From IMG/VR virus record IMGVR_UViG_3300009002_000753, positions 1 to 40,518 of that record: a stretch of 40,518 nt of DNA, one strand, 5' to 3'. The position numbers were made by a program, and so were the translations under genes. Shown here piece after piece: positions 11,967 through 39,825 of this stretch; the first letter of the stretch is position 1; the number at the start of each line of letters is the position of its first letter. Origin of the DNA: a virus. A model generated the notes under the pieces. The model saw nothing but the letters and a program-made list of their open reading frames with translations, made no database searches and was not told where the DNA came from.

Positions 11967-11987
11967 TATTTATATTAATATAAGAAT
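11967..11987 (-). promoter_or_regulatory. Promoter-like motif before groES
   Basis: Minus strand TTCTTATATTAATATAAATA, the best copy of the recurrent motif. It also contains TATAAATA, identical to the T4 late-promoter consensus. The groES ATG follows at 11953. In such AT-rich DNA a chance match cannot be excluded for a single site; the repetition across genes is the evidence. Confidence 0.6.
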
Positions 11988-15899: not shown

Positions 15900-15922
15900 T
15901 ATTTATACATAAATATAAGAAA
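15900..15922 (-). promoter_or_regulatory. Promoter-like motif before the GIY-YIG gene
   Basis: Minus strand TTCTTATATTTATGTATAAA with TATAAATA at its 3' end, 19 bp before the ATG at 15881. It is a close copy of the groES motif and probably drives the GIY-YIG-polA-sulfotransferase block. Confidence 0.55.
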
Positions 15923-16781: not shown

Positions 16782-17693
16782 TTACTGTCTTAAAGTTTTT
16801 TCTATTCTGTAATCAGTATTAGTGAAAAAATCAGGAATAAACCTTGAATGAGTAGCTCTAATAGGGTTAATATCTAATCCTCCTCTTCTAGTATATAAAC
16901 AAGATACCATTAAATCTTCTGGTTGATATGCATCTGTTAAATGTTTAAATACCATTTCACAAATCTCTTCATGGAAGTGACTTACAGTTCTATGAGATAC
17001 AATATACTTCGCTACTGATTCAGGAGAAGGAATATTCTTTCCTTTCATTCTAATAAAGACATCTCCCCAGTCTGGTTGATTAGTTACTCTACAATTAGAT
17101 CTTAATAGGTTAGATCTTAACTTTACTTCTTTAGCCTCTTCTGATACAGTTTCTATTTCTAATTGAGAAGCATCTGAAGAGAAAGCAGTGAAGTCTATTT
17201 GATCTAAATCTGCAATCTCAGCTAAATCTTGATAACCTTCAAAAGATAATGCTTTACCGTCTTCTGAATCTGTGTAAAAACTTACTGTTGTATCTGTTTC
17301 AAGTAACTTATCTAAATCACTTTTTACCTTCTCTTCAATCTGTATAATACAATCCACAGAAGTAGCTCCTAATCTAGTCATATTAAAAGAATTTAAGTAT
17401 AACTTAATAGATTTAGATTCTACGTGATATTGAGAGTTTGAAGGACATACAATTTTTAACATTCCTGCAACAGGTAAGCCTTTATCTGTAATTGCTGATA
17501 CTTCATAACAGTTCCAAGTATCTACTCCTACAAAGTCCTTATCAGTTAATCCATAGCCTTCTCTATTCAAATAGCGAGGTACTTTAACTAATAGCTCTGG
17601 TGCGTAGGTATCTTTATACCCGTCTCCACCTACTTTTCCTAAATGTTTAGACGCAATGTCTACTACTTCTTGATAATTTTTAACTTCTGCCAT
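16782..17693 (-). CDS. queF: NADPH-dependent 7-cyano-7-deazaguanine reductase (long type)
   Basis: Start at ATG 17693, 2 bp after the SNase stop and following AAAGGTTA; an upstream in-frame ATG at 17735 lies inside the SNase gene. The 303-residue protein is of the two-domain, E. coli-like type. The QueF motif VESKSIKLYLNSFN is at residues 91-104, and SNCRVTNQPDWGDV at 199-212 contains the nucleophilic Cys201 and the partner Asp208. HEE at 241-243 binds substrate. It reduces preQ0 nitrile to the preQ1 amine with NADPH. In this window it links the QueC product to the DpdA-like transglycosylase. Confidence 0.95.
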   Translation of the reverse strand: MAEVKNYQEVVDIASKHLGKVGGDGYKDTYAPELLVKVPRYLNREGYGLTDKDFVGVDTWNCYEVSAITDKGLPVAGMLKIVCPSNSQYHVESKSIKLYLNSFNMTRLGATSVDCIIQIEEKVKSDLDKLLETDTTVSFYTDSEDGKALSFEGYQDLAEIADLDQIDFTAFSSDASQLEIETVSEEAKEVKLRSNLLRSNCRVTNQPDWGDVFIRMKGKNIPSPESVAKYIVSHRTVSHFHEEICEMVFKHLTDAYQPEDLMVSCLYTRRGGLDINPIRATHSRFIPDFFTNTDYRIEKTLRQ

Positions 17694-17694
17694 A

Positions 17695-18060
17695 TTAACC
17701 TTTAAATAATTGTTTTTTACCACCCTCATAAACATAAGCGTGTCCGTTTTCTATTAATAAATCATTAAGAGATTTTTCTTCTCCTTTGATGAATATTTCT
17801 GCAAGTACTCTACCGTACTTACCTTTACCGTAAGATTGTATTTCAAACTTACCATCATTCATCTCTAAATATTTTTTCGTAAAATCAGAAGCAAGAAGAC
17901 CTTTAGCTTTTTCTTCTAAGTTTCTTGTTCTCTTTTCCCAGGTATCTACACCTTTGAATCTAAGTCTTGCTTTAACCCAAGTACTGAATCCTAAGTCGAT
18001 CATAACATCTGCTGTGTCACCATCAACTACTCTTAATAATTTTGCTCCGTATCTAAACAT
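17695..18060 (-). CDS. Staphylococcal-nuclease-family (SNase) nuclease
   Basis: A 121-residue OB-fold nuclease. It has the calcium-binding strand LLRVVDGDTADVMID, the catalytic Arg/Glu segment ARLRFKGVDTWEKR, and GKYGRVLAEIFI with the third catalytic Arg. All three catalytic positions (R-E-R) appear present. It has no signal peptide, so it acts in the cytosol if expressed as read. It overlaps the kinase gene by 8 bp. A possible role is host DNA or RNA degradation. Confidence 0.88.
   Translation of the reverse strand: MFRYGAKLLRVVDGDTADVMIDLGFSTWVKARLRFKGVDTWEKRTRNLEEKAKGLLASDFTKKYLEMNDGKFEIQSYGKGKYGRVLAEIFIKGEEKSLNDLLIENGHAYVYEGGKKQLFKG
17696..17703 (-). promoter_or_regulatory. Ribosome-binding-like AAAGGTTA before queF
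   Basis: Minus strand AAAGGTTA directly before the ATG at 17693. The AAAGG part complements the CCTTT of the 16S 3' end. Similar AAAGGTTAT stretches precede polA and the GIY-YIG gene. It decides the queF start at 17693 over 17735. Confidence 0.5.
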
Positions 18061-18574: not shown

Positions 18575-19119
18575 AAAGCTTCTCTTAAAAAGTTACACCA
18601 CATATATAACCCTCTGTCTCTTAAGATACGAAATAAATCTTCAAGCTCCACCTGAAAAGTATTAAATCTTTCTTCCATTATAATTTTACCTTCATCTACT
18701 CCAGCGGTAACTCTATGCAGAACAGTTCCTGCTATAGGGTACTTACCTTCGTTAATACCTTCGAAAGCTCTAATCTGAGGATCTTTACCTTTAAGTTCAG
18801 GGTACTCAGTTATTAAACCTGGATGCCCGTTAATTATAATATATTTTTCACATATAGAAGGAGGCATTATTCTTAACCAACCATGTAGAGTTATTAATGC
18901 TTCCGGAAAGTATACTAATAAGTCTTCATACTCTTCTTCATCAGGTTTATTACTAAAGGTAAAGTAACCTTGTTTTTCAATCCTAGGGTCTATAGTTCTA
19001 AGATGCTCAGGTCTATCGTTTGTAATAATCCGATCTGGCCATCTACCTAACGATTCAGCTATATCAGCTATTTCAGCTCCAGTCTGACTAAAAAATGCTA
19101 TCCAAGTCTTAGTTGCCAT
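18571..19119 (-). CDS. PurN-like formyltransferase-family protein
   Basis: A 182-residue protein of the folate-dependent formyltransferase fold. The catalytic triad of glycinamide ribonucleotide transformylase is visible: Asn97 and His99 in IINGHPGL, and Asp142 in AGVDEGKI. YPELKGKDPQ and GTVLHRV resemble the product-release loop of PurN. The N-terminus differs from PurN, lacking the GGNG phosphate-binding start, so the substrate is probably not GAR. It overlaps the DpdA-like gene by 11 bp, so an amine on preQ1 could be its acceptor. That link is inferred from position only. Confidence 0.8.
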   Translation of the reverse strand: MATKTWIAFFSQTGAEIADIAESLGRWPDRIITNDRPEHLRTIDPRIEKQGYFTFSNKPDEEEYEDLLVYFPEALITLHGWLRIMPPSICEKYIIINGHPGLITEYPELKGKDPQIRAFEGINEGKYPIAGTVLHRVTAGVDEGKIIMEERFNTFQVELEDLFRILRDRGLYMWCNFLREAL

Positions 19120-19912
19120 TAGTATACCATTTAAATTTCTGAATATTATTTTTAATTGTGCCTAACTGAATATCATCAATCTCAGAATTAATCAGTTCAT
19201 GAAGTTTCTGTCTTTCTTTAGACCATAACCCATCTGATCCATATGATATACCTTTAATACCGTGAACTACAGGATTAGAAGTATCAAGTGAATATATCCA
19301 ATCATAATCGGAATGCTTATAAAAACTAAATTCTTGAGGTAATCCACATCCTAGTAAGTGATGAGGTTTAGCTGTATTGATCACACCGTCTCTAAGTAAA
19401 TCTCCCAGTAGCTTAACACGTCCTAGCATCCAGCTAACATACTTGTTAGCATGAGGAACTGATTGTGTATAATACGAGTAATCAAATGATATAGCTATCA
19501 TATCTACATCTGCTGTCTTGTTCATATAGTTGTAGCAATCTACAATTTCATCATATGTCCTACCTTGAACAACTCCTATTTTACCACTACCTTCGTAACC
19601 GTATCCTTTATTAATCCAGTCTTCCATCTGGTCGCAAGTTTTACCAGCGTCTTCTAAAGCATCTGGGACTATATACCAAGTTGGTTTAAGTTCGTTAACC
19701 CATTTATTAAATTTATCTGCATCGAAAGCCTCTTCTAATTCAAATATAGAGTTATCTAAAATAATCTCCCTACCTTTTACTGCTGCCTTTTTAAACTGAT
19801 CTAAGTACCCTTTATCTTCTTCAAATAAATGTACTAACGCATAGTCGTAGTCAGTATATCTCTGTACCTCTTCGAATATTTCTTTAGGACTTTCGTGTGC
19901 TATCTTTATCAT
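19109..19912 (-). CDS. dpdA: DpdA/TGT-like 7-deazaguanine transglycosylase
   Basis: A 267-residue TIM-barrel-like protein with TGT hallmarks: ILDNSIFELEEAF (Asp53) aligned with the substrate-binding D-S-G-G segment, VPDALED at 82-88, KIGVVQGR at 111-118 (TGT GVVQGG), HLLGCGLPQEF at 185-195 (TGT LGVG.P) and YSLDTSNPV with Asp210 as candidate nucleophile. The C-terminal CxCxxC zinc site of tRNA-guanine transglycosylase is absent, and the protein is about 100 residues shorter. This fits the phage DpdA family, which swaps guanine in DNA for a 7-deazaguanine. It overlaps the formyltransferase by 11 bp and lies in the same block as folE and queF. Confidence 0.82.
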   Translation of the reverse strand: MIKIAHESPKEIFEEVQRYTDYDYALVHLFEEDKGYLDQFKKAAVKGREIILDNSIFELEEAFDADKFNKWVNELKPTWYIVPDALEDAGKTCDQMEDWINKGYGYEGSGKIGVVQGRTYDEIVDCYNYMNKTADVDMIAISFDYSYYTQSVPHANKYVSWMLGRVKLLGDLLRDGVINTAKPHHLLGCGLPQEFSFYKHSDYDWIYSLDTSNPVVHGIKGISYGSDGLWSKERQKLHELINSEIDDIQLGTIKNNIQKFKWYTNGN

Positions 19913-20634: not shown

Positions 20635-21070
20635 CTTTATTTAATTTATTTGTATTCTCTATCGGCATTGTTAATCCTCCAATGTAATTACCATCGGCTA
20701 GATGGAAGTATGGATCGTCTTGTGCTCTATCGTAATCATCTTCTAATCTTATGATATCGTCTTCTCCAAAATAAGTACCAGTTTGAACTTCTATAAATTG
20801 TACTACTTCGTCAGTTTTATTCCAAGCTCTATGTTTAGCTTCTAATGGAATATGTATAGAACCTCCTGTTTTAACTGTATAGATTTCATCATCCAATACA
20901 ACAGTTAGGACTCCTTCAACAACTGTCCACTGCTCACGTCTATTAGTATGATACTGGTAAGAAAGTCTTTGTCCAGGAGCTACAGTTATTAGTTTAACTT
21001 TAGTAAAGTCAGTATCTAATAATACATCATAACAACCCCAAGGTCTTTCATCGTGTTCTAATGCTTGCAT
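20627..21070 (-). CDS. Cupin, phosphomannose-isomerase type II-like
   Basis: A 147-residue protein that aligns with the C-terminal cupin of type II mannose-6-phosphate isomerase/GDP-mannose pyrophosphorylase: RPWGCYDVLL, PGQRLSYQYHTNRREQWTVV with metal-binding His residues, and GGSIHIPLEAKHRAWN. It should isomerise a sugar phosphate or bind a sugar nucleotide. The N-terminal guanylyltransferase domain is absent. It overlaps folE by 13 bp. A link to the glycosyltransferases at 4135-5591 is possible but not shown. Confidence 0.8.
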   Translation of the reverse strand: MQALEHDERPWGCYDVLLDTDFTKVKLITVAPGQRLSYQYHTNRREQWTVVEGVLTVVLDDEIYTVKTGGSIHIPLEAKHRAWNKTDEVVQFIEVQTGTYFGEDDIIRLEDDYDRAQDDPYFHLADGNYIGGLTMPIENTNKLNKDE

Positions 21071-21771
21071 ATGCTTGCTAATTCTATGTTCTTATAAAAC
21101 TCTGCTTTTGCTGAATCCTCATTTAAAAATGCTCCTGTTAACTTAGCAGTCTGCATTGAAGCTCCTCCATGCTTTACTCCTCTACATGATACACATGCAT
21201 GAGTTGCATTTACCTGAACTGCTACTCCTAAATTACCTTCACATATCTTATCTACTGCATTATGAATAGCTACCGTTAACTGCTCTTGAATAGCTCCTCT
21301 TCTACCGAATTGCTCTACAATTCTATTAAGCTTAGACAGTCCTACTACCTTACCATCTTCTGATGCTATATAAGCAATACTTACTGTACCTCTAATAGCT
21401 TGATGGTGGTGAGAACACATAGACGTTACTGGTATATTACTCTCCTGTACAATGCCGTCATATCCATCAGAAGGAAATGCTGTAATACGGTCTAAAGGGC
21501 TATATCTTCCAGCCCACAAGTCATTAACATAAGCTTTAGCTACTCTCATTGGAGTATCTGCAGAGTTAGGATCGTCTTTATAGTCACATCCTAATGCAGT
21601 TAAAAAGTTTGCATATGCTTCTGATGCTCTTTTTATAATAACTTGCTTTTCATGATCAGTAAGTCTAGCTTCTGGTCCTTCTGTCTTTTGTTTTTCCGCT
21701 AGTTGAGTTGAAATACCGTTAGCGAATCCGGCTCTTACTAATTCTGTTCCTTCTATAAACTTTTTAGGCAT
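21058..21771 (-). CDS. folE: GTP cyclohydrolase I
   Basis: A 237-residue FolE1-type enzyme. The zinc ligands are Cys119 and His122 in TSMCSHHHQ and Cys193 in HACVSCRGV. The region GLSKLNRIVEQFGRRGAIQEQLT matches the conserved catalytic helix. It opens GTP to 7,8-dihydroneopterin triphosphate, the first step to both folate and 7-deazaguanine bases. With queD, queE, queC and queF in the window its product most likely feeds preQ0 synthesis. An N-terminal extension of about 35 residues precedes the core. A TTCTTATCTTTAATTAA element lies upstream at 21812-21828. Confidence 0.95.
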   Translation of the reverse strand: MPKKFIEGTELVRAGFANGISTQLAEKQKTEGPEARLTDHEKQVIIKRASEAYANFLTALGCDYKDDPNSADTPMRVAKAYVNDLWAGRYSPLDRITAFPSDGYDGIVQESNIPVTSMCSHHHQAIRGTVSIAYIASEDGKVVGLSKLNRIVEQFGRRGAIQEQLTVAIHNAVDKICEGNLGVAVQVNATHACVSCRGVKHGGASMQTAKLTGAFLNEDSAKAEFYKNIELASICKH

Positions 21772-22404: not shown

Positions 22405-22705
22405 AATCTAAACCGAAAAATTTATAGTTGTTAATAACTGCCTCTTTTTCTCCTGCTTCGATTGCTTCTTCTTCACTATCGAAAATTGCTTCTACAGGGC
22501 ATTCCGGAACACAAGCTCCACAGTCGATACATTCTTCTGGGTTTATGTATAGGCTTTTACCGATTAAGTCTTCTTTGGACATTCCTGCTACTTCTGCTCC
22601 TGCTCCTGTAATATCTATAGGACCGTGAATACAGTCTACAGGGCAAACTGCTACACAGGCTGTATCGCAAGTACTAACGCAAGGTGATCCAATTATAAAA
22701 CTCAT
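22397..22705 (-). CDS. Two-cluster-type ferredoxin
   Basis: A 102-residue protein with two cysteine sets. The second set is [12 protein letters not shown], the standard 4Fe-4S motif; the first region reads [17 protein letters not shown]. This is the bacterial 7Fe/8Fe layout. It shuttles electrons. Its ATG overlaps the queE stop as TAATG, and QueE is a radical-SAM enzyme requiring a one-electron donor, so the ferredoxin is best read as its dedicated reductant. Moderate-length C-terminus is acidic, as in Fd. Confidence 0.93.
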
Positions 22706-23484
22706 TATACTTCTCTTTGATCTTCAAACGCAATAATATGCGGTCTCCAGGTTAATCTATATCCATTATCTCTAACCCAATCAAACATGACTGGATAAGA
22801 CTTTTGTAATGCTGCTCGAGTATCCCCAGCAGGCATAAACCATACTTTATCCTTAGGTGCATCCAATTGCTCTATACAGTCCATAATCTCTTCTAATGCT
22901 CCTTCGTCTTTCCCGTCCCATACAGGCTTTAAATGGTAGTCTGAATGGTATGCAATACTTTCTTTTATAGCAGGGTAATTAAGTCTAAACTTATTATGCT
23001 GCTTTATCATTTTCTCATCTGTAATCTTTCCTTCAGGAGTTTCGACACCGAGTACAGGTACCGAATTGCTGAACTTCGGACTGATTGAAAGTAGATTAAT
23101 AGGATAATCAGTAGGTAGAAAATGGCTACCTTCATTCTCCATAGTAATGAAGATATTTCTTTCATTTGCTAAATGTGTTAATTCGTTTACTAGTTTCTTA
23201 TGCATAGAAGGACTTCCTCCTGTTAACATCATTTCTGATATATGAGGATTATCGTCATATGCTTTTATAATATCATTAAATGAGTATTTTCCTTTTTCTG
23301 GATGTATAGAAGTATACCAGCTATCACACCATCCACCTTCTCCGAAATAACACCTATGAGTACAGCCAGTAGTCCTAATAACCACTGTAGGATAACCTGC
23401 TCTGGATCCTTCTGATTGTACTGCCGTGTATATTTCAACGATCGGTAAGTTTTTATCGTAATCTTCTATTCTACCTAGGCTCAT
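22705..23484 (-). CDS. queE: 7-carboxy-7-deazaguanine synthase, radical SAM
   Basis: Start at ATG 23484 ([20 protein letters not shown]) gives the usual N-terminus with a 14-bp overlap with queD; an earlier ATG at 23520 is possible. The cluster-binding region is [20 protein letters not shown], i.e. Cx3C followed by seven residues and C, where standard radical-SAM enzymes have Cx3Cx2C. The SAM-binding GGSPSMH and the substrate-binding WCDS..TS are present. It contracts carboxytetrahydropterin to 7-carboxy-7-deazaguanine (CDG). The length of 259 residues fits phage homologues. Confidence 0.92.
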
Positions 23485-23941
23485 ATAATGCTGTGTTTTT
23501 ACCGTGTTCTCTAAATTCAACTTTAGCTAGCTTTACCCTGCCGTCTGTCTCTTCTAACAAAAATGGATTAATTTTATTGTAGAGGTACTCTGCAAATTTC
23601 TCTGCTCCTACTGCTTCAATTACTCTTAGCTGAATAGTGCCGTTTCTATCTAATTTTTTGAAGTACCCGGCAAGTTGAGGATCATCTTCCGCAATTATAA
23701 CCGTATGATCAAACATATAGTCCATCCATGCTTTAGGAGACATTCCGTCTATCGTAGCTTTAGCTCTTTTCATGCCTCCAAAGTCCCATACCCAGTTCCT
23801 ATCATCTAATTCTCCTTCAAACCATAGTTTAAAAGATACTCCGTACCCATGTAAGAATCTACAGTGAGTAGTTTCTGCTTTCCATTGTCTAAAACAAGTA
23901 CTAAACCCGTCAAAGACTTTTGTTGATTGAAATTTTCCCAT
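23471..23941 (-). CDS. queD: 6-carboxytetrahydropterin synthase-like (QueD)
   Basis: A 156-residue PTPS-fold protein with GFSTCFRQWKAETTHCRFLH, GELDDRNWVWDFGGMKRAK and FDHTVIIAEDDP (His79, catalytic). It has Cys27 at the position of the catalytic Cys. The canonical zinc triad AAH...HGH is altered: the HGH pair reads HGY and AAH reads TCF. The motif FDGFSTCFRQWKA is typical of a phage branch of this family as I remember it. It converts dihydroneopterin triphosphate to 6-carboxy-tetrahydropterin. It leads the queD-queE-ferredoxin block with short overlaps. Confidence 0.9.
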   Translation of the reverse strand: MGKFQSTKVFDGFSTCFRQWKAETTHCRFLHGYGVSFKLWFEGELDDRNWVWDFGGMKRAKATIDGMSPKAWMDYMFDHTVIIAEDDPQLAGYFKKLDRNGTIQLRVIEAVGAEKFAEYLYNKINPFLLEETDGRVKLAKVEFREHGKNTALYEPR

Positions 23942-24204: not shown

Positions 24205-24246
24205 GTGGTACTACGACACTATAGTCATATATATATAATATAAGAA
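24205..24246 (-). promoter_or_regulatory. Promoter-like region of the queD-queE block
   Basis: Minus strand TTCTTATATTATATATATAT followed by GTGTCGTAGTACCAC. The first part is the recurrent motif, and the GTCGTAG.ACC box recurs before folE. It marks the start of the queD-queE-ferredoxin transcript. Confidence 0.5.
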
Positions 24247-25589: not shown

Positions 25590-25706
25590 CTAGAAATTCT
25601 TATAACTAAACGGATCCCTTTTTTTCAACTCCTTAATTTTCTTATTGTAGAGTTTATTCTTTTTATAGGTAGTATACCAGTTCTTTATGTAGTTGAATAT
25701 TTTCAT
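25590..25706 (-). CDS. Small basic protein (38 aa)
   Basis: A 38-codon frame, MKIFNYIKNWYTTYKKNKLY followed by KRDPFSYKNF. A Lys-rich helix ending RDPF.Y is seen in many tiny marine phage proteins beside structural genes, as I recall. Its ATG overlaps the carbamoyltransferase stop (ATGA). Function is unknown. Confidence 0.6.
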   Translation of the reverse strand: MKIFNYIKNWYTTYKKNKLYNKKIKELKKRDPFSYKNF

Positions 25707-27361
25707 TTTTTTAATACTAAATAATTTCCTAATACCAAGTAATCTATATCACTGTTGAGAAATCTTTTGATTGCTTGGTTAGGTGTTCTTGTTATTGTTT
25801 CGTCTTTTAAGTTAAAAGAGGTATTCAGTAGAACTCCATGTCCTGATAGTCTCTTAAAAGCATCTAACAATAAATAGTACCTTTCATTTTGTTTCTTACT
25901 AACAGACTGTACTCTTGCTGTACCATCTATATGAGTAGCTGATGGAAATTTATTTAAAGAGCCATTCTTTACCTTTACTACCTGGTTCATATACGGTATT
26001 TTGTCTTTAGTAAGAAAGTATTTAGTTGTATCTTCTTCAATGACAGAAGGAGCGAAAGGTCTAAAACCTTCTCTTTTTTTAATTACTAAATTTAACTTTT
26101 CACGCATTTTAGGGTTATAAGGTGAAGCTAAAATACTCCTATTACCTAATGCTCTAGCGCCAAATTCCATTCTATCTTGGAACCATGCTACTATCTTATC
26201 TGAGTACAGTAATTTAGCAACTCTATTCATTAGTTTTTCTTCAGCAAATTCTATAAAATCTACTTTGTCTGAATTAGCTAAAATCTGGTCTAGATATTCC
26301 TCTTTTGTGTAACTATTACCTAAGTAAGGAGAAACATTATCTTTAATCGGGCCTCTGTAATTATTTAAACATGCTCCTATTGCAGAACCAGCATCAGAAG
26401 GGGCAAATGGTATGTGTATATTATTATAGTGTTTATATGCTTTGTAATTAGCAACACCGTTATAAGCACATCCTCCTCCTAAACATAAATTATCGCTTTT
26501 ACCTATCAGTTTCATTTTATGTACAAACTCTAAGAAAAAATATTCATACACTGCTTGAATTGAAGCTGCTAAGTCCTTATGATCTTGAGTAACCTCTTCT
26601 TCTGGAAGTCTAGGTGATAGGTTTAAAAGTTTTGCAAGCTTAGAATTAAACATTATCTTATCTGTATATTCCCAAGTGTAAAACTTCTGGTTTACTTTAA
26701 AACCTGTTAACTCTATCGTGCTTTTAAGTAAATCAAAATATTTTCCAGGGTTACCATAAGGTGCTAATCCCATCACTTTATATTCCCCTTCATTAGGTTT
26801 AAACCCAAGAAATGCAGTCATAGTTGAATAAAACATACCTAGTGAATTTGGAAACTTATAAGAATGTTTTAATTTTAGTTCTTTTCCTTCACCTTTCCAG
26901 AAAGATACTGTTTGCCATTCTCCTACTCCGTCTACTACTAGTATATCTGCTGATTTATATGGGGAAGTAAAGAACGAAAAAGCAGCATGAGATTCATGAT
27001 GAGGGGTATAGCTAATTTTACCCTTATACCCTAAATCAAAAAGTAACCTTTTAGGTTTATTTTTTGCGAACTCTTTTCTAAATCTTTTCTTAGTAAAAAA
27101 GGTACGTAATGGGTGTTTGCTAAATATCTTCTCTACCCTATCTCTTTTTAAAGCAGGATCTTCGTACCAGCATACTTCAGAAATATCATCTATACTAGTA
27201 TTAGTGCTTTCTAAACAGTATTTAATAGCGTTTAAAGGAAACGAACTATCGTGCTTTAATTCAGTAAATCTTTCTTCTTCTGCTGCTGCTATTACTTTAC
27301 CATTTTCAACTATACAAGCTGCAGAATCATGGTAAAATGCTGATATACCTAATTGTATCAT
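25703..27361 (-). CDS. Carbamoyltransferase (NodU/CmcH/TobZ family)
   Basis: A 552-residue protein with both halves of the family. The N-terminal ASKHA-like domain has GISAFYHDSAACIV, HHESHAAFSFFTSP and DGVGEW. The C-terminal half has DRMEFGARALGNRSILASP and LLNTSFNLKDETI. It transfers a carbamoyl group from carbamoyl phosphate to a hydroxyl group through a carbamoyl-AMP step. It is near full length. Similar genes occur in T4-like cyanophages. Cotranscribed with a sulfotransferase upstream (4-bp overlap). The acceptor might be a glycan, an LPS sugar or DNA; none is proven. Confidence 0.92.
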   Translation of the reverse strand: MIQLGISAFYHDSAACIVENGKVIAAAEEERFTELKHDSSFPLNAIKYCLESTNTSIDDISEVCWYEDPALKRDRVEKIFSKHPLRTFFTKKRFRKEFAKNKPKRLLFDLGYKGKISYTPHHESHAAFSFFTSPYKSADILVVDGVGEWQTVSFWKGEGKELKLKHSYKFPNSLGMFYSTMTAFLGFKPNEGEYKVMGLAPYGNPGKYFDLLKSTIELTGFKVNQKFYTWEYTDKIMFNSKLAKLLNLSPRLPEEEVTQDHKDLAASIQAVYEYFFLEFVHKMKLIGKSDNLCLGGGCAYNGVANYKAYKHYNNIHIPFAPSDAGSAIGACLNNYRGPIKDNVSPYLGNSYTKEEYLDQILANSDKVDFIEFAEEKLMNRVAKLLYSDKIVAWFQDRMEFGARALGNRSILASPYNPKMREKLNLVIKKREGFRPFAPSVIEEDTTKYFLTKDKIPYMNQVVKVKNGSLNKFPSATHIDGTARVQSVSKKQNERYYLLLDAFKRLSGHGVLLNTSFNLKDETITRTPNQAIKRFLNSDIDYLVLGNYLVLKK

Positions 27362-28005
27362 ATTATGCTTCTATTGTTTGTGTCTTTTCTCAATCTATTA
27401 TTAGGATTAGTACGTTCTACGTAAAGTTTCTCATTAAATCCATTTATATCTCTTATTTCGCCAAGTTGTTTTAATCTTATTGAACTATAAGAACTGAACA
27501 CATCTTCATACCAAGTAATATCAGTATTTAAATCTAACGATAAAAGTTCTATTTTAGTTTTTTCATTAACGTAAAAATTTATTTTAGCATCGATTTCTTC
27601 TTGAGAAACTTTATAATCAGAACTATACTGTGTCTGAAAATCATTCTTTCCGGATAGTTTAGATCTTTTTTGTGCTATAGCATAGCTCATTGCTTGTGCA
27701 TTTACATCTCTTCTGCTTAAAATTATAACGTGTTTAAACTGCTTTGCAAAATTAAGAAAATAGCTATAAGCATCAGTTGTCTCAGGGTATTGGTGAGTCA
27801 TACATTTTACTACCAACTTATCGTCTTTTCCTATATTATCAAAATCTATATCTGAGTAATCTAAGTGAGGAGGAGATAGGAATAGAGGATGCTTAAAAAT
27901 AGGATTTAAAGGTTCATGTACTCCTCTATACCCTATACATCTAGCTAAGGTAGTCAATAATGCTGTTGATCCTGATCTTGGATTTGTAATTATAAGTATA
28001 CTCAT
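27358..28005 (-). CDS. Sulfotransferase-family protein
   Basis: A 215-residue P-loop protein opening MSILIITNPRSGSTALLTTL, where NPRSGST is the PAPS 5'-phosphosulfate-binding loop. A region near 90-105 (HVIILSRRDVNAQAMSYAI) holds the Arg/Ser that bind the 3'-phosphate. It would transfer sulfate from PAPS. It overlaps the carbamoyltransferase by 4 bp; joint action on one sugar or metabolite is plausible. The upstream neighbour is tRNA-Ala, which is 16 bp away. Confidence 0.82.
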   Translation of the reverse strand: MSILIITNPRSGSTALLTTLARCIGYRGVHEPLNPIFKHPLFLSPPHLDYSDIDFDNIGKDDKLVVKCMTHQYPETTDAYSYFLNFAKQFKHVIILSRRDVNAQAMSYAIAQKRSKLSGKNDFQTQYSSDYKVSQEEIDAKINFYVNEKTKIELLSLDLNTDITWYEDVFSSYSSIRLKQLGEIRDINGFNEKLYVERTNPNNRLRKDTNNRSII

Positions 28006-28101: not shown

Positions 28102-28248
28102 CTAAATAGTGCGGTTTCTTCTTACTCCGTCCCACTTAGCTTTCCTAGAATTACCCAGCATAGCGTATCTACTTATTCTCTGATTGACATTTGATCTTTC
28201 AGAATTTAACTGGGTATTCCCGTTAGTTGATTGGTCTCGATTATGCAT
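28102..28248 (-). CDS. Small basic protein (48 aa)
   Basis: A 48-codon frame, MHNRDQSTNGNTQLNSERSN and ending NRTI, rich in Arg, Asn, Lys and Ser. Its ATG overlaps the queC stop region, and the stop lies 6 bp before the tRNA. The basic composition and tight overlap favour a real gene, but no homologue family is recognised. Confidence 0.4.
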   Translation of the reverse strand: MHNRDQSTNGNTQLNSERSNVNQRISRYAMLGNSRKAKWDGVRRNRTI

Positions 28249-29059
28249 ATTCTGCTAGTAATTTTGCTACATGTGTTTTCGCAACTTCATAATCAACTGG
28301 TCCAGTTTCGTCTTCATATTGAACGGGATCATTAACACCCAAATCAATGAATGCTTCAATACGTTCAACTGATGAAGCGCTTTTGTAGTCAGAGTTTCCA
28401 CTTGGATATGGTTTGTACGAGGTATTCGTTCTTTTGTATACTTCGTTAAAATCCAATTCCAATTCTTTAATGAGTTTCTGTCCATCTTTTAAGATTCCTA
28501 GTTTATCTGTATCTAAATAAGGAGTAAAATACCCTACTTTCTCAGCTTCCCAATTACCTAATCTAAAGGCATTATCGTCAGCATCTCTAAACTCTTGTCT
28601 ACAGTCAGGATAGATTGCATGATCACCAGCATGAATTCCTAATGCGATATCTGTATCGTTACCATTAGATGTAGCTGCTGATAATGCTACTGCTTGTACT
28701 AAAGAAGCAAATATCTTGTTCCTATTAGGTACTACTGTAGCTTTCATGTTATCTTCTTCATAATGACCTTCCGGTACATCTTCTCCTCCTTCAGTTAGTG
28801 CTGAATTTAGTAAGTTAACTAAACCGTCTAGTTTAATAACTTGATAGTTAATCTTGCAACCTCCGAAACATTCGTTATCAGAAGGGCAAGTCTCATTAAT
28901 ATAATTTACTAATGATTGTGCTCTTTCTAGCTCAACTCTATGCTTCTGACCGTAATCAAAAGATATAGCAGTTACTTGATCGTACTCTTTTAAACATCTG
29001 AGTAATAATGTAGAGGAGTCCATCCCTCCGCTTAGACTTACAACAACATTTTTTGCCAT
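28241..29059 (-). CDS. queC: 7-cyano-7-deazaguanine synthase (QueC), zinc-less variant
   Basis: A 272-residue N-type ATP pyrophosphatase with VVSLSGGMDSSTLL (P-loop at residues 9-16), ISFDYGQKH, VPNRNKIFASL, LGIHAGDHAIYPDCR and YFTPYLDTDK, all in QueC order. It converts CDG and ammonia to preQ0 using ATP. Cellular QueC binds zinc with four cysteines near the C-terminus (S-C-Y... and C-G-x-C-x-x-C-x-E-R). Here these positions read TSYKP and DYKSASSVER, so all four cysteines are lost. A separate C58-x5-C64-x3-C68 set occurs in an N-terminal insertion. The start and length are otherwise normal. Confidence 0.93.
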   Translation of the reverse strand: MAKNVVVSLSGGMDSSTLLLRCLKEYDQVTAISFDYGQKHRVELERAQSLVNYINETCPSDNECFGGCKINYQVIKLDGLVNLLNSALTEGGEDVPEGHYEEDNMKATVVPNRNKIFASLVQAVALSAATSNGNDTDIALGIHAGDHAIYPDCRQEFRDADDNAFRLGNWEAEKVGYFTPYLDTDKLGILKDGQKLIKELELDFNEVYKRTNTSYKPYPSGNSDYKSASSVERIEAFIDLGVNDPVQYEDETGPVDYEVAKTHVAKLLAEYA

Positions 29060-33230: not shown

Positions 33231-34580
33231 TTAAATTTTATCAAAAATTTTATTTACAGTAGCTCTATCAACTGTGAAGTTACTATCTCCTCCTGGCTCA
33301 ATTAAATCTGAAGGATCTACTTTACCTTCAAACTCTATATGACCATTATTCGTATCCATTTTAACATTATAGGTCATTCCGTCTTGACCGTATCTGTTTT
33401 TCATAACATGGACTCTCCCGGTACCGAGTACCTTATCTTCTTTTTGCCTAGATAAAGATAAACAAATATCTGCTACCATCATCTTATCATACGAACCAGC
33501 TGCTTTATCACCTTCGATTACTGAATCTTTAGCTCCCATTCTGTTTACCTGTGAAGGTGTAATGATTGGTATCTTTAATTCTTTAGCTAATCCTTTAGTA
33601 GCAATAAATACGTCGTCTATTTCATCTTTACGTTCAGCAAACTTAGAACCTCTAGAAGGTGCTCTTAAGTAATCAACATAATCAATTATGACTAGGTCTG
33701 GTTTATGATCCATATCAGCACACTTCTGTATATGTGATCTTATACTACCTACTGAAGCTGATTTCGGTGCATACTCTTTAACAATTAACGCTCCTTTAAG
33801 GCCGTCAACGTGTGTCTGAACTTCTTTACGGTGGTTATTAACTTCATCAATAGAGTGCCCTGTAAAATAACAGTCAAATCTCTTACCGACGTAATCTTCT
33901 CCGAGTTCCAAAGTATAATAGTTGACTTTATAGCCCATCTTAACAGCATGAGCAGCCATAGCAACACAAGTCCAAGACTTACCACCTCCCGGATTACCAA
34001 ATATAATAGCCAAGTCACCAGGTCCAAATCCTCCCTGTAGTCCATCATTAAGGATAGGCCAAGGACTAGGAATAGTAGGACGATAGTCAGTTCTGTAACG
34101 AGTTTCAACGTCTTTATTGTATTCATGTCCGATATTTTTATCCATACCAGCTTTCATAGCTTTCTCAATCATGTTTCTGATACCATCAAAATCATGTTCT
34201 TTAAGCAAGTCGGCTGAGTTAAGTATTGCAGATTTCATTTCTTGATTCTTACAGAACGTTTGAAACTCTTCTTGTACATACTCTAAATCATCTTGAGAAG
34301 CCTCGTATGAGTTTCTTAATTCTTCTTTAAGAGCTACTTGAAGTACTTCGTTTTCTAATTTCTGAAGTTCTACTTTAAGTACATCCATTGTAATGTTAGT
34401 ATGATACTTATCGAAATATTTAACAATTTCGTTAATTATCCATTTATGGGAATCTGCATCAAAATAAAAATCGTGAAGTACGTCTCTAACGTTAAGTAGA
34501 AAACTTTTGTCTGTAAGTAATGATCCAAGTACTTTTAATTGGAACCCCTTCCCGTATTGTTGTAAGCTCTTTAATGTCAT
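33231..34580 (-). CDS. dnaB: DnaB-like replicative helicase
   Basis: A 449-residue protein of the RecA-fold superfamily 4. The N-terminal domain (residues 1-150) is helical. Walker A is IFGNPGGGKSWT near 195, Walker B is DLVIIDYVDYLRAP near 295, and PIITPSQVNRMG is the motif 3/arginine region. It unwinds DNA at the fork, comparable to T4 gp41. It is about the size of T4 gp41 and of DnaB. The start follows an AAGG-type RBS. No primase is seen in the window. Confidence 0.93.
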   Translation of the reverse strand: MTLKSLQQYGKGFQLKVLGSLLTDKSFLLNVRDVLHDFYFDADSHKWIINEIVKYFDKYHTNITMDVLKVELQKLENEVLQVALKEELRNSYEASQDDLEYVQEEFQTFCKNQEMKSAILNSADLLKEHDFDGIRNMIEKAMKAGMDKNIGHEYNKDVETRYRTDYRPTIPSPWPILNDGLQGGFGPGDLAIIFGNPGGGKSWTCVAMAAHAVKMGYKVNYYTLELGEDYVGKRFDCYFTGHSIDEVNNHRKEVQTHVDGLKGALIVKEYAPKSASVGSIRSHIQKCADMDHKPDLVIIDYVDYLRAPSRGSKFAERKDEIDDVFIATKGLAKELKIPIITPSQVNRMGAKDSVIEGDKAAGSYDKMMVADICLSLSRQKEDKVLGTGRVHVMKNRYGQDGMTYNVKMDTNNGHIEFEGKVDPSDLIEPGGDSNFTVDRATVNKIFDKI

Positions 34581-34612: not shown

Positions 34613-35032
34613 TTATTTGTTTAATAACCAACTACTAGATTGAATTTTATCACCTAATCCGTCAATTAATTCTATACCGTACTGTTCACAGATTTTTCTT
34701 TCTGGAATAGTACTATTATTTTGATCTCCTCCGTTTGCAAATGCTAGTTTATACGTTTCGTGAAACTTGCTGAACATAAGTTTTAAGGTATCGTTTTGAG
34801 TACTGTCTTCGTCTACTGAAATCCAAGCCATATCTACTACTGTAAGAGCTCTTATGATCTGTACTCTTTCTGCTTCATCCATAAAAAACGATGAACCTTT
34901 TATTTCCCTCTGTTTATCATTATTAACGATAACTATTAAAGCGTCACCAGCTTCTTTAGCTTTATCAAATAACTCTAAGTGTCCTTTATGTAAGGGATTG
35001 AAATATCCGCTGACTATTATTGCTTTCTTCAT
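34613..35032 (-). CDS. Cytidylyltransferase-like nucleotidyltransferase
   Basis: A 139-residue Rossmann-fold enzyme. The HxGH motif is in YFNPLHKGHLELF, and the CTP/ATP-binding region is IVNNDKQREIKGSSFFMDEA, like the N-N-D-x-Q-R-x-x-K-G of RfaE-domain/GlmU-type or NMNAT-type proteins. The second motif ISxxxxR is not clear. Candidate substrates include glycerol-3-phosphate, heptose-phosphate and nicotinamide mononucleotide. It overlaps the exonuclease gene by 4 bp. Confidence 0.8.
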   Translation of the reverse strand: MKKAIIVSGYFNPLHKGHLELFDKAKEAGDALIVIVNNDKQREIKGSSFFMDEAERVQIIRALTVVDMAWISVDEDSTQNDTLKLMFSKFHETYKLAFANGGDQNNSTIPERKICEQYGIELIDGLGDKIQSSSWLLNK

Positions 35033-36057
35033 GACCTAACTGTTAACCCTCTAAAATTCTCTAACCAACCTTCTGTATTTTTAGTAATACCTTCAATTTT
35101 ATCCTTTTCTAATAGTCTAAGAAATGCTCCAGTCTGCAAGTCAGGTACAGGGCTCTTAATAGTATCTACTACGAATGATTTTTCTTTCTCGTCTAAGTCA
35201 GATACATTTAGATCCATTAGTTTATAGTTTGTTTCGACTCTATCCCACTCAGTGATGATTTTAGGAAATATCTTTTTAAACTTTTTCTCTTCTAATTTAG
35301 CAGCGCATACATTATATACGTACTCCAAAGTAGTTCCGGGCTTATTTACCAGGTCTGGAAATTCAGATATAATAGTTTTTATACCTAATCCTTTAACTCC
35401 TGCTAAATTATCTGAATTGTCTCCTAGTAATGCTTTAACTACGTTGTAATTCTCTGGTAATACCTTAAGTTCATCGAATATATTACTCTCTGTAAAGGTT
35501 TTCTTTTTAACCGGTGCATACACTTCGATTGTATCGTCTACTAGTTGTAAGAAGTCTTTATCAGAAGAAATAATAGTACATTTCTTAACATCACTCATAG
35601 ATGCTCTCTTTGCAATGTATGCTATAATATCATCCGCTTCTAACTTCTCCATCTGCAATTGCTGTACTGGTAAGCATTCTAGATAATCTTGAGTCCTATA
35701 AAGTTGCCCTATTAAAGCTTCCATTTCTTCAGCCTTACTATCGTAAAGTCCCCAGTGAGTAATTCTAGATGTTGCCCTCTGAGCTTTATAATTAGGATCT
35801 ATATTTTTTCTATTAGCTGAACCTCCTTTACCGTCCCATACTATCATAACTCTAGTAGGATCGAATATCCTAGTTACGTAGCCTAAAGAACGAAGAAACC
35901 CTACCAAGCCACCTACATGGTGACCTGATGGGTTCATCGCTTTGAGCAATGAGAAACTACGAATAAGCATATTCATAGCATCTATGACCAGGATATGGTC
36001 ATTCAACGCTCGGGGTGGGGTCTCTTTTAAATTGTTGAGTATGTTTTCGTATGCCAT
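35029..36057 (-). CDS. 5'-3' exonuclease / flap endonuclease
   Basis: A 342-residue FEN-type nuclease. Metal-binding acidic residues are in VIDAMNMLIRSF, VWDGKGG, LEADDIIAYIAK and SSDKDFLQLV. The helix-hairpin-helix region is GDNSDNLAGVKGLGIKTI. It removes RNA primers or flaps. It corresponds to T4 RNase H and to the 5' nuclease domain that the phage PolA lacks. It overlaps uvsX by 1 bp. Confidence 0.92.
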   Translation of the reverse strand: MAYENILNNLKETPPRALNDHILVIDAMNMLIRSFSLLKAMNPSGHHVGGLVGFLRSLGYVTRIFDPTRVMIVWDGKGGSANRKNIDPNYKAQRATSRITHWGLYDSKAEEMEALIGQLYRTQDYLECLPVQQLQMEKLEADDIIAYIAKRASMSDVKKCTIISSDKDFLQLVDDTIEVYAPVKKKTFTESNIFDELKVLPENYNVVKALLGDNSDNLAGVKGLGIKTIISEFPDLVNKPGTTLEYVYNVCAAKLEEKKFKKIFPKIITEWDRVETNYKLMDLNVSDLDEKEKSFVVDTIKSPVPDLQTGAFLRLLEKDKIEGITKNTEGWLENFRGLTVRS

Positions 36058-37127
36058 TAATCGAGTAAGTTAGGAGAGATTGGTGTTTCTTCTAAATCTC
36101 CTTCCTCGATCAGGTCAAAGTCTACGGAACCGACTAGTTTTAACCAGTGTTCTTTATGAGCATCTCTATACTTATCAATAGCTTTTTTATCGTCTTCGAT
36201 AAATCCATGCGATGTCATTACAACTCTACCTCTAGACTGCACTCCTCCAATATGGTTCTTCTCTATCTGAATATTAGTTCTTTTAGCGAATTCTACTTGA
36301 AGTCCGTTCTTTACAGCTTTAATCTTAGAAGTACCCGGGTTAGTAATATTACCAAAAGTAACAACTAATGTAGCATCATACCACATTGACATTCCTCCTT
36401 TATTCTGTAATTTAGGTTGACCCATAGGGTGTTCTGGTTTCATAGTCCATACCTTATTAATAGCAACTAACGTGTTAGTATAAGGTGAGTTCTCTTTTCT
36501 AGATAATAGTATCTTTTGATTAAGATTATTACCAAATTGAGTAGACATAGCCCCTGCATTCCATTCGTTATTATTCTTATTAGAACGAACTGATAAATCA
36601 CAAGGTATAGAGCCGATAGAATCCCAGAAGAAGCACATATCATAAGGTAGGTTACCTTTCGCTTGTTCGTCCATTAGGTCAGCCATATAAACTGCTACTT
36701 CTTCAATAGTATTTAATGAACCTCTGTCAGCATATAAAAAGTGACCTTCATAATCTACTACTGTACCATTAGCGTCTTTGATTTCTTCAATCTGTAATCC
36801 CATCTCTTTAGCGTGATCCCATGACCATTTCATCTCTGATATAATAAACACAGGCAGTATGCCCTTTTTCTGGGCATTAACTGCAGCTTCTAATAGGGCA
36901 GTTGTTTTGCCCGTATCACTGTGTCCTCTTAGTAGAGTTATATGTCCGGTTGGAATACCGGGTAGAGATGTTATGTCTTGGAACGCTTTCGACAGTGGAA
37001 TCCATCCCTGTTCCTTGAATTTAACAGAAGCATTTGAGAATCCTTTCTTTTTCTTAAAGTTTCCTAAGTTAAACCCTTTCTTGACTGCCGCAGATGCGGC
37101 TTCTTGTACTGCTTTTTTCTTTGCCAT
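36057..37127 (-). CDS. uvsX: UvsX/RecA-like recombinase
   Basis: A 356-residue RecA-fold protein. The N-terminal 30 residues are basic (MAKKKAVQEAASAAVKKGFN). Walker A is LLRGHSDTGKTT near residue 68, the Walker B-like strand FFWDSIGSI is near residue 168, and the loop AGAMSTQFGNNL follows. It catalyses strand exchange and recombination-dependent replication. It lies directly before the flap endonuclease and downstream of the SSB, mirroring a T4-like recombination module. Confidence 0.9.
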   Translation of the reverse strand: MAKKKAVQEAASAAVKKGFNLGNFKKKKGFSNASVKFKEQGWIPLSKAFQDITSLPGIPTGHITLLRGHSDTGKTTALLEAAVNAQKKGILPVFIISEMKWSWDHAKEMGLQIEEIKDANGTVVDYEGHFLYADRGSLNTIEEVAVYMADLMDEQAKGNLPYDMCFFWDSIGSIPCDLSVRSNKNNNEWNAGAMSTQFGNNLNQKILLSRKENSPYTNTLVAINKVWTMKPEHPMGQPKLQNKGGMSMWYDATLVVTFGNITNPGTSKIKAVKNGLQVEFAKRTNIQIEKNHIGGVQSRGRVVMTSHGFIEDDKKAIDKYRDAHKEHWLKLVGSVDFDLIEEGDLEETPISPNLLD

Positions 37128-37132
37128 AAATA

Positions 37133-37930
37133 TTACTCGTTAAATAGGTCGTCAAATTTACTAACTGTATCTTTATTGCCAGCAGTAGCTGTTTCTAAAG
37201 TAAAGTCAGTCTTTTGAGGACTAGAGCTTTCTGGCGGTGTTTCAGATCCTGCAGCTGGAGCATTCTCCTCTACTGAACCTGGGTTTAAGTAGTTTTGTAG
37301 TTGTTTCTTAATAAAGTCGTAATCATACTGAGTATGTACTTCGACCGGATTAGGTTGTTCTTTCAACCACGTATCTACTTGTACATTATCATTAGATAAC
37401 GGTGTTTGTTTAGGTTTAATTCTTACTGAAGTAGTAGGGTAAGGATTTCCAGGTTGTTGTTCAACTACCATATCCCATCCGTTAATAACGTCTGTAAAAT
37501 CTCCTACGTCTTCATCTTCGGCTAAAGCAAGTAACGCTTTATAGATAGTAACTCCGAAGCCCCATAGTCTAACTCCTTTGTCTTCTTCTCCTCTTACAAT
37601 TACAGGAGCGAATACTCTAGTCTTAGGGTTAATTTTACCAGATAATGACCAATTGTCTTTATCATTTGTTTTTCTAAGTTCTTTTACGAACTCTTCAATT
37701 GGATCTTGTTTACCGAAGTTAGATAAAGCTACCATTGGATACTTACCAATACCATAGTGGAATTTTAATTCCTTAAATGGAAAAGTAGGATCGAAATGAG
37801 ACGGTACAATACGTACAGTCTGTTTACCTTGTTCAGGTTTCCAAAAGATTTTTGAATAGTCAGTTTTTTCTCTTTCCTGACCGTTGTTGTTTAAGGCAGA
37901 TAGTTTAGCCTTGATTGCATTGATGTCCAT
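37133..37930 (-). CDS. gp32-like single-stranded DNA-binding protein
   Basis: A 265-residue protein. The core has FWKPEQGKQTVRIVPSHFDP, FKELKFHYGIGKYPMVAL and FAPVIVRGEEDKGVRLW, which resemble T4 gp32-family OB-fold strands; gp32 zinc cysteines are absent. The C-terminal 50 residues are low-complexity and end in KFDDLFNE, an acidic tail for binding partners, as is usual. A promoter-like TTCTTATATT motif lies 29-47 bp upstream. It coats ssDNA during replication and recombination. Confidence 0.88.
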   Translation of the reverse strand: MDINAIKAKLSALNNNGQEREKTDYSKIFWKPEQGKQTVRIVPSHFDPTFPFKELKFHYGIGKYPMVALSNFGKQDPIEEFVKELRKTNDKDNWSLSGKINPKTRVFAPVIVRGEEDKGVRLWGFGVTIYKALLALAEDEDVGDFTDVINGWDMVVEQQPGNPYPTTSVRIKPKQTPLSNDNVQVDTWLKEQPNPVEVHTQYDYDFIKKQLQNYLNPGSVEENAPAAGSETPPESSSPQKTDFTLETATAGNKDTVSKFDDLFNE

Positions 37931-37958: not shown

Positions 37959-37977
37959 ATATATACCAATATAAGAA
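37959..37977 (-). promoter_or_regulatory. Promoter-like motif before the ssb gene
   Basis: Minus strand TTCTTATATTGGTATATATA, sharing the TTCTTATATT core with groES and other sites. The ssb ATG is at 37930. Confidence 0.55.
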
Positions 37978-37984
37978 CTTATTT

Positions 37985-38443
37985 TTAGTTCTCCAACTCT
38001 ATTATACGAAAAAGTTTGGTATTTACTCTTTTTAATTCTGGACCTTTGGTTAACAGTATGCAATTTCTGTAATCCGTCCAGTTAACTCTAAAACTTTTAT
38101 CTAATACTCCGTCATTTAACTCCTTAACTAGAGTATTCAGTGCATTGATTGTGTAAAGTGTGTTTGATTCTTTCTTTCTATGTACTAGTATTGTATTCTC
38201 TAGAAATGTAGACACATTGCCGTAGTCGACGTTATAGGTACATATGTACTCATCCTGGCTTTTTGAATATAGGACAAAGATCTTGTTATAGATGATTTTA
38301 TACCTTTCCTGTATTTCTTTTAATGTGCTCTCTAATTCTCCTTCTGTAGAAAAAGTACAAAATAATTTGTTGCTCATATCTTCGTTTAAACTAATTTCGT
38401 CAATATCGTAGTCGAATTGACGCTCCTCTGTAACATTTGTCAT
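37985..38443 (-). CDS. Hypothetical phage protein (152 aa)
   Basis: A 152-residue protein with an acidic N-terminus and segments KLFCTFSTEGELESTLKEIQ and ILVHRKKESNTLYTINALN. The pattern is familiar to me as an uncharacterised protein encoded next to SSB genes in marine phages. The final part contains RVNWTDYRNCILLTKG. It may regulate or accompany replication. A promoter-like CTTATATTTATATAA ends 2 bp before the ATG. Confidence 0.75.
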   Translation of the reverse strand: MTNVTEERQFDYDIDEISLNEDMSNKLFCTFSTEGELESTLKEIQERYKIIYNKIFVLYSKSQDEYICTYNVDYGNVSTFLENTILVHRKKESNTLYTINALNTLVKELNDGVLDKSFRVNWTDYRNCILLTKGPELKRVNTKLFRIIELEN

Positions 38444-38445
38444 TT

Positions 38446-38460
38446 TATATAAATATAAGT
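38446..38460 (-). promoter_or_regulatory. Promoter-like motif CTTATATTTATATAA
   Basis: Minus strand, ending two bases before the ATG at 38443. If the TATATT part is a -10/-7 element, the transcript would begin at or near the start codon. Confidence 0.45.
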
Positions 38461-38465
38461 TAGTA

Positions 38466-39791
38466 TCATAAAACCAGATTCTTTGAGAACTTGAATTTTA
38501 CTGGGTATTTCCCGTTTTCAGATAGTATTTGTTCTAAGTCGTTTAATAGGTCCTTTCCGTCTTCCTTAGAAAAGTCGAAAAGAATTGAATCGTATGTATA
38601 AAGTACAGCTTTAGATTTTTTACCCTGTAGGTATTTAAAGACTGCTTTAAGTATATTAATATTTCTAGAAGTTTCTAATGATTGCATAACATAATTCATT
38701 AACTTCTGTGGGTTCATTCCCTTGAGCGAGCTTGTGAAAGGCTTTCCACTAATTGGTGCCAGGACTTCTCCGTCATCTTTGTATCGTTTCCATAACTCTT
38801 TGATATAATCATCAATTCTTGTAAAGATTTCAAGGAAAGCATACTTTTCTGGTATCTTTCCATAAATTGCGTGAAAGTTAATTTGTTTAGCTTGGTCATA
38901 TTCTTCTTCTGTTATATGTTCTTTATTAAAGTATTGGGTAGCTAGTTGCTTATGAGCTGATGCTTCGGTAAGTTTATACCCAATTTGCTCACAAAGTAAG
39001 CGCAAATGATAACCGTCAAAATCAAACTCAACAAAGTAATCACCGGTCGGTCGAAAGGTCTTTCTATGCTCGGGAGTCTTAGGTATAGCAGCAAAATTAA
39101 CAGAATTAAAAGCATTAGTAGGTCTAGAAGTAGCATTGTATAAATTGTATGAAGTTAGTACTGTGTTATTATCTGTGTTGTATAGTGGGTTTCTAGGGGT
39201 AAATATTTTATTAAACTCATCATAATATACTCCTAAACCTCCGTGCTCTAGTAAATAGAAAACATTAGTAGCAGTTTTATTATAAAAATCAAAGCCATTA
39301 GGTATTGCAATATTCAATACTGGTTTAATTTGCTTATATATATTTTCATTAGCTTCGTAAAGCTTAGAAATAGGAATTAACTTATTTACCTCTTTATGTT
39401 TCTGAAATTTATTATAAAAGTAGTTTAGTGAGCTATTCTCTTTAGTGTACTCTAACTTATCGTATTTTGTCATAGCATAAAGCAATGAAATATCTATAGC
39501 TTCCTGTAGATTAAAGTGATAGAGCAGCTCTTTCTTATTTAATGTATACAGTGTGTTTGCTTTCAGAAGAAGTTGGTAGACCCGTTCTTTATCTACGTTT
39601 AATCCTTCTGGGTGATCTATAGGAATGATGTATCCGTAATCGGATTTCAGTAATCTTATGTAGACTGCTATTGATGAAGTAAGCTTTGGATGGTATAAGT
39701 CATTAGTTGATACTACATTTACGTAGCAACCTAATCTAACTAGATTCTCTATTGACTGTAATTTACTCTCTTCTTCTACTATATAAAACAC
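38466..39791 (-). CDS. Second, divergent family A DNA polymerase-like protein
   Basis: A 441-residue protein with a recognisable family A palm and fingers. Motif A is EFDFDGYHLRLL (Asp257; the usual QIELR Glu is His262, Arg264 kept). Motif B is AKQINFHAIYG (Lys302, Phe306, Tyr310-Gly311). Motif C is LYTYDSILFDF, where VHDE is replaced by TYDS with Asp401 retained. The N-terminal 200 residues show no exonuclease motifs. The two palm aspartates are kept, so some activity is possible. It sits beside ssb, away from the full polA at 13046. It may be a translesion, primer-related or regulatory polymerase. Confidence 0.8.
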   Translation of the reverse strand: MFYIVEEESKLQSIENLVRLGCYVNVVSTNDLYHPKLTSSIAVYIRLLKSDYGYIIPIDHPEGLNVDKERVYQLLLKANTLYTLNKKELLYHFNLQEAIDISLLYAMTKYDKLEYTKENSSLNYFYNKFQKHKEVNKLIPISKLYEANENIYKQIKPVLNIAIPNGFDFYNKTATNVFYLLEHGGLGVYYDEFNKIFTPRNPLYNTDNNTVLTSYNLYNATSRPTNAFNSVNFAAIPKTPEHRKTFRPTGDYFVEFDFDGYHLRLLCEQIGYKLTEASAHKQLATQYFNKEHITEEEYDQAKQINFHAIYGKIPEKYAFLEIFTRIDDYIKELWKRYKDDGEVLAPISGKPFTSSLKGMNPQKLMNYVMQSLETSRNINILKAVFKYLQGKKSKAVLYTYDSILFDFSKEDGKDLLNDLEQILSENGKYPVKFKFSKNLVL

Positions 39792-39809: not shown

Positions 39810-39825
39810 TATACTTAAATATAAG
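39810..39825 (-). promoter_or_regulatory. Promoter-like motif CTTATATTTAAGTATA
   Basis: A copy of the recurrent motif on the minus strand, 19 bp before the ATG at 39791. AAAGGTTAT lies between it and the start codon. Confidence 0.45.

Follow-up and report, generated by a model that had tools for sequence, protein, structure and literature searches.

The window, by which we mean the whole 40,518-nucleotide stretch of DNA analyzed here, is a linear 40.5-kb IMG/VR fragment, kin of Flavobacterium phage immuto, and nearly all of its genes lie on the minus strand. It encodes two family A DNA polymerases. The first, at 13046-15433 on the minus strand, is the full polymerase that an earlier note on this DNA had placed there: a PolA-type enzyme of 795 amino acids with both 3'-5' exonuclease and polymerase domains (Pfam DNA_pol_A, 4.6e-52; DNA_pol_A_exo1, 3.6e-11). 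The second is an open reading frame at 38466-39791, read on the minus strand from a GTG start at 39791 down to 38466 and encoding 441 amino acids; the same note had its length and coordinates exactly and gave no strand. We assign this gene to divPolA1, a family of thumbless family A DNA polymerases with a probably dead exonuclease region. A chance open reading frame was rejected, given more than 560 relatives in IMG/VR, residues that are invariant in 172 relatives and a dN/dS of about 0.08-0.19 (vs ten close relatives), which shows that the gene is under purifying selection.

divPolA1 stands at the head of a run of replication and recombination genes. In order of transcription, it is followed by d1 (37985-38443), encoding a 152-aa uncharacterized protein with the signature HRKKxxNTLYTxNALN; a gp32-like single-stranded DNA-binding protein (SSB; 37133-37930; Pfam gp32, E=1.4e-10); a UvsX/RecA-like recombinase (36057-37127; Pfam RecA, 1.7e-6; PHROG UvsX-like, 1.7e-15); a 5'-3' exonuclease or flap endonuclease (FEN; 35029-36057; Pfam 5_3_exonuc_N, 2.6e-32); a small nucleotidyltransferase-like gene; and a DnaB-like replicative helicase (33231-34580; PHROG DnaB-like, 3.1e-75), with all of these coordinates on the minus strand. 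The replication context that had been read from the proximity of ssb is thus borne out by the whole d1/SSB/UvsX/FEN/DnaB cluster, and it recurs, with the SSB downstream in 111 of 115 loci and the FEN in 71 of 74. The octamer CTTATATT, a candidate phage promoter element, occurs in seven intergenic minus-strand copies, where shuffling of the intergenic DNA gives an expectation of 0.16. Copies lie upstream of divPolA1 (39818-39825), d1 (38452-38459) and the SSB (37968-37975), and the others (24237-24244, 15912-15919, 11977-11984 and 2449-2456) stand before GroES and three other genes; the divPolA1 and SSB copies are found in 40/87 and 56/81 near relatives, respectively, counts that are inflated by relatedness.

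That divPolA1 is a genuine family A polymerase is supported by its profile match, by the confidence of its predicted structure and by Klenow as its top fold. The window protein matches Pfam DNA_pol_A (PF00476) at E=5e-8 and 32.7 bits, which is 1.6 bits short of the cut-off of 34.3; the same profile is matched by 72 of 83 diverse relatives (best 1.8e-12), and PHROG_17 DNA polymerase by 33 of the 83, while this particular member had no significant match among the PHROGs. Its palm and fingers (residues about 204-441; 38469-39182, minus strand) align to Klenow 648-924 with a probability of 98.8% (hhalign, E=1.3e-16) against a profile built from the E. coli, T7, GH15 and CRP-3 polymerases and the two main phage PolAs. 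The AlphaFold2 model, made from 83 sequences, has a pLDDT of 92.9 and a pTM of 0.90, and its best PDB matches are Klenow and further structures of Pol I (E-values starting at 5e-18; TM 0.71 relative to the query); the top matches listed are DNA polymerases, with no RNA polymerases among them. The structure prediction that the earlier note had called for gives the family A fold.

An enzyme of this kind has already been described. Yutin et al. (2024; PMC11348598) introduced the name divPolA1 for a family in 14 phages, with immuto foremost among them, and their passages on the family describe a second PolA with a catalytic palm, a truncated thumb and an inactivated exonuclease, which accompanies a regular polymerase (PolA, PolB or PolC), precedes genes for replication, and for which they proposed a role in replication. 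The window protein is 61.0% identical to immuto gp001 over 100% of its length (E=4e-174), and the two are alike in size (441 aa), operon, the regular polymerase alongside, the dead exonuclease, the truncated thumb and the catalytic residues of the palm. The window gene belongs to divPolA1: each feature given in those passages is present and nothing that defines the family differs. The description of a second PolA as uncommon calls for a qualification, since one was already on record for this phage group (PMC11348598); in the immuto phages the annotation of both genes reads DNA polymerase family A. Our literature search found the name divPolA1 only in Yutin et al. (2024) and its preprint, and no biochemistry or functional assay for any member.

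The family reaches well beyond the immuto-like phages. Along with its IMG/VR relatives, it is present in Microcystis phage Mel-JY01 (190 kb, complete) and in the uncultured 484-kb phage LR756508. The GTDB species genomes held only two relatives, both on metagenome-assembled contigs that are probably phage contigs binned with their host.

The active site of divPolA1 is altered, and altered in the same way throughout the family. Residues were counted in 172 distinct full-length relatives, with identity to the window protein down to about 27%. Asp257 and Asp401 (Klenow D705 and D882) lie, as the earlier note had claimed, within FDFDGYHLR and YTYDSILFD, and both are invariant (172/172), as are the DxDxxH and YD patterns around them. 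In motif A (residues 257-264, DFDGYHLR; 39000-39023, minus strand), D259 (S707) and H262, at the position of the steric gate E710, are likewise invariant, and R264 is found in 171 of the 172. Motif B (residues 298-311; 38859-38900, minus strand) had been described as near-perfect; K302 (K758), F306 (F762), Y310 (Y766) and G311 do match Klenow and are invariant, but the motif is less perfect than that, since the phosphate-binding R754 is replaced by Tyr298 (Tyr in 171/172). Motif C (residues 398-406, YTYDSILFD; 38574-38600, minus strand) carries Y400 in place of H881 and S402 in place of E883; Y400 and D406 do not vary, and position 402 is only ever Ala or Ser. T221, R223 (R668), P224 and N226 of the T(S/G)RP(T/S)N motif (residues 221-226; 39114-39131, minus strand) are invariant in all 172, and the equivalents of N845 and Q849, which contact DNA and dNTP, are retained in essentially all homologues. 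Motifs A and C that are altered and yet constant over 172 relatives indicate a coherent, selected family rather than the degeneration of one gene, and together with the Klenow profile alignment they uphold the reading that the genome has another polymerase of family A, whose altered motifs are conserved.

The same counts bear on whether the protein is an enzyme at all. With several canonical active-site residues changed, divPolA1 might lack catalysis and act as a DNA-binding scaffold or a regulatory subunit, but the metal-binding Asp pair and the equivalents of Lys758, Phe762, Tyr766 and Arg668 are invariant down to about 27% identity, which would be unlikely in a dead protein; we regard this as highly improbable and disfavor an inactive pseudo-enzyme on the same grounds.

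In Klenow, E710 excludes ribonucleotides, and this position governs the choice of sugar. Judged from the residues involved, the replacement of E710 by His, of R754 and H881 by Tyr, and of E883 by Ala/Ser could jointly alter the chemistry of the enzyme (e.g., its sugar selection) and not only its fidelity. The fold matches of the divPolA1 model include 4dqr, the complex of Bacillus Pol I E658A with rCTP, in which the mutated residue is at the E710-equivalent position. One rival reading is an RNA-tolerant or primer-making polymerase, that is, a primase or initiator that starts or extends chains with ribonucleotides: the steric-gate Glu has become His in 172/172, the 4dqr complex concerns that very position, T7-like phages have recruited family A polymerases to serve as RNA polymerases, and a similar proposal has been made for divPolA2 (PMC11348598). 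We nevertheless think it unlikely and rejected it as a first choice, since the same phages encode a primase of their own: a DnaG-type primase is present in immuto, Mel-JY01, LR756508 and three large contigs, which makes a primase role for divPolA1 less needed. In addition, closure of the gate may be preserved, as His is a bulky residue and Y766 is retained, and the top fold matches listed are DNA and not RNA polymerases.

Two further changes lie outside the polymerase motifs. The N-terminal domain (about residues 1-135; 39387-39791, minus strand) shows no DxE-type exonuclease I motif and no Pfam exonuclease match, and appears to be the remnant of a 3'-5' exonuclease without its catalytic acidic residues. 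Residues 3-195 align end to end, if weakly, with residues 8-260 of the first polymerase in a profile comparison (E=0.016, low probability), the AlphaFold model is alignable over most of Klenow, and the structural mapping of relatives described by Yutin et al. has all three catalytic aspartates of the exonuclease replaced (PMC11348598). Together, these suggest, with less certainty than attaches to the palm, a catalytically dead exonuclease fold. The observation that the protein "lacks exonuclease motifs" is accordingly right as to the lost active site, but the N-terminus is apparently a dead exonuclease remnant and not simply absent. The second change, which the earlier note had missed, is the loss of the thumb. 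The thumb lies between an ExxG(L/I) motif, with which the exonuclease region ends, and the palm's TxR motif; the spacing between these motifs is 21-39 residues in 79 members, and the corresponding lengths are 125 for E. coli PolA and 217 for the 795-aa polymerase of the window, a difference that shows that the thumb is essentially gone from the family.

The regular polymerase that accompanies divPolA1 is not always of the same kind. A PolA replicase and divPolA1 occur together in immuto and in 9/9 near-relative contigs of more than 54 kb that were searched; PolB takes the place of PolA in Mel-JY01 and in 9 of 11 distant contigs, and LR756508 has both PolB and PolC matches. Thus divPolA1 is retained while the companion replicase changes between PolA and PolB. 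It is also not a recent duplicate of the 795-aa polymerase, since BLASTP found no significant pairwise match between the two; duplication of the first polymerase was rejected on this ground and because some genomes or contigs with divPolA1 yielded no main PolA. Could the small enzyme be the true replicase, with the 795-aa polymerase as the accessory? divPolA1 alone lies in the conserved replication operon, and the neighborhood of the main polymerase is described as variable (PMC11348598). But divPolA1 has neither a thumb nor a proofreading site, and nearly all of the long contigs searched have either a PolB or a PolA that is complete with its exonuclease, so that we consider this very unlikely.

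Some details of the companion polymerases deserve mention in their own right. The main polymerase at 13046-15433 has its own departures from Klenow, with R712 replaced by His in motif A (DYESLEPH) and E883 by Gln in motif C (VHDQ). In LR756508.1 (260623-266900) the PolB match is split across frames several kilobases apart, which suggests inserted elements or split genes.

Both the window and immuto carry a set of genes for 7-deazaguanine modification of DNA. In the window these are QueF (16782-17735), a protein at the position of immuto's DpdA (19109-19912), for which no Pfam match was found, FolE (21058-21771), a QueE-like radical-SAM protein (22705-23520), QueD (23471-23941) and QueC (28241-29059). 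A 552-aa carbamoyltransferase (25703-27361; Pfam Carbam_trans_N and _C, E <1e-58) lies near these genes, adjoining a sulfotransferase-like gene, and possibly provides a further step of DNA or surface modification. Proteins encoded at 12516-13064 and 27358-28005 both open with a similar PR(S/T)GST motif, P-loop-like and sulfotransferase-like; one of them has a weak Stf0 match, and they are possible paralogues.

The earlier note had proposed synthesis across modified bases. On this reading, widened to damaged DNA, divPolA1 would be a translesion enzyme or one that copies templates modified with 7-deazaguanine. The missing proofreading site and altered active site would suit such a role, as would the 7-deazaguanine pathway encoded by the window and by immuto; queC is found together with divPolA1 in the window, its close kin and immuto. 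However, we did not find queC in Mel-JY01, LR756508, the 173-kb contig G015 or several other contigs, all of which carry divPolA1, and the groups where queC was found and those where it was not share one active-site signature. We therefore rejected 7-deazaguanine bypass as the general role of the family and rate the wider proposal as improbable, within which general damage bypass is possible.

The most constant companion of divPolA1 is d1. Of the 184 divPolA1 loci with sufficient flanking sequence, 183 carry it, in every case on the strand of divPolA1; in the reverse direction, a search with a DNA pattern for the d1 motif had divPolA1 nearby in 57 of 58 loci among the matches listed, and in 50,697 annotated phage records d1 matches 6, which are exactly the 6 with full-length divPolA1. 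The protein is strongly conserved, and its AlphaFold model has a pLDDT of 86. Comparison with PDB folds gave no significant match, and comparison with BFVD gave one strong match, to another uncharacterized phage protein. Assignment to a family by Pfam or PHROG was dropped, the matches being few, scattered and weak; several weak matches to the DNA-binding domains of Rep, large-T or E2 fell below significance and were not used. The divPolA1 passages of Yutin et al. (2024) and of the preprint do not mention d1, and this near-constant partnership is a new observation here.

Taken together, the best reading, to which we give a probability of about one half, is that divPolA1 is a distributive gap-filling or recombination polymerase that works with the SSB, UvsX, FEN and helicase encoded beside it, with d1 possibly replacing the thumb. 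A thumbless, non-proofreading enzyme should be distributive and suited to short synthesis. divPolA1 would then make short stretches of DNA on an SSB-covered template, filling the gaps left when the FEN takes out RNA primers and lengthening the 3' ends of D-loops made by UvsX, with bulk synthesis left to the full-size replicase. Repair, Okazaki processing and recombination-dependent synthesis are all compatible with the gene neighborhood, which is in itself no proof of role. Less certainly, d1 might supply in trans part of the missing thumb, either holding the primer-template or tethering the enzyme to the SSB or the helicase. No relative of d1 whose fold is known could be detected, so it is the co-occurrence of the two genes that points to this function. 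The boldest version, a two-subunit polymerase of new architecture in which the thumb is permanently lost and d1 holds the primer-template, we put forward only tentatively, as something we rather doubt.

Numerous large phages of aquatic habitats encode two polymerases, and divPolA1 and d1 bear on the question of why the small, divergent one is retained. As the kind of enzyme has already been published, the interest of the window gene lies in its d1 partner and in the loss of the thumb. To the published family we add hundreds of metagenomic relatives, Mel-JY01 and the 484-kb phage, the residue signature, the near-obligate d1 and the finding that divPolA1 has no general link to 7-deazaguanine genes. 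The family signature (His at the sugar gate, Tyr in motif C, loss of the thumb) and the near-invariable d1 define a testable pair: whether they synthesize DNA jointly, and on which substrate. If the thumb does come from a separate protein, a family A polymerase built in this way would be unusual, and the small enzyme might prove useful.

Among known polymerases, the main PolA of the same phage (the immuto gp199 counterpart) is also of family A but has 795 aa, a thumb and an exonuclease domain. With E. coli Klenow, divPolA1 shares the palm and fingers (648-924), the two catalytic Asp and the equivalents of R668, K758, F762, Y766, N845 and Q849; it differs in having no thumb, in the lost exonuclease residues, in length (441 vs 605 aa) and in the four active-site substitutions given above (at E710, R754, H881 and E883). 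It is thus not a replicative, proofreading PolA of the Klenow/T7 type, as the exonuclease residues and a complete thumb are both absent. The divPolA2 of barbaviruses, as described by Yutin et al., is similarly a second, divergent family A enzyme that lacks exonuclease activity and a standard thumb and sits beside a regular PolB, but it is described as having an unrelated N-terminal globular domain and a variable neighborhood (PMC11348598). The T7 and mitochondrial RNA polymerases share with divPolA1 a related palm fold and a changed steric-gate residue; however, T7-like RNA polymerases have a small gate residue and an N-terminal promoter-binding domain, whereas divPolA1 has His throughout and an N-terminus that resembles an exonuclease remnant, its top fold matches are DNA polymerases, and its phages encode a DnaG primase as well.
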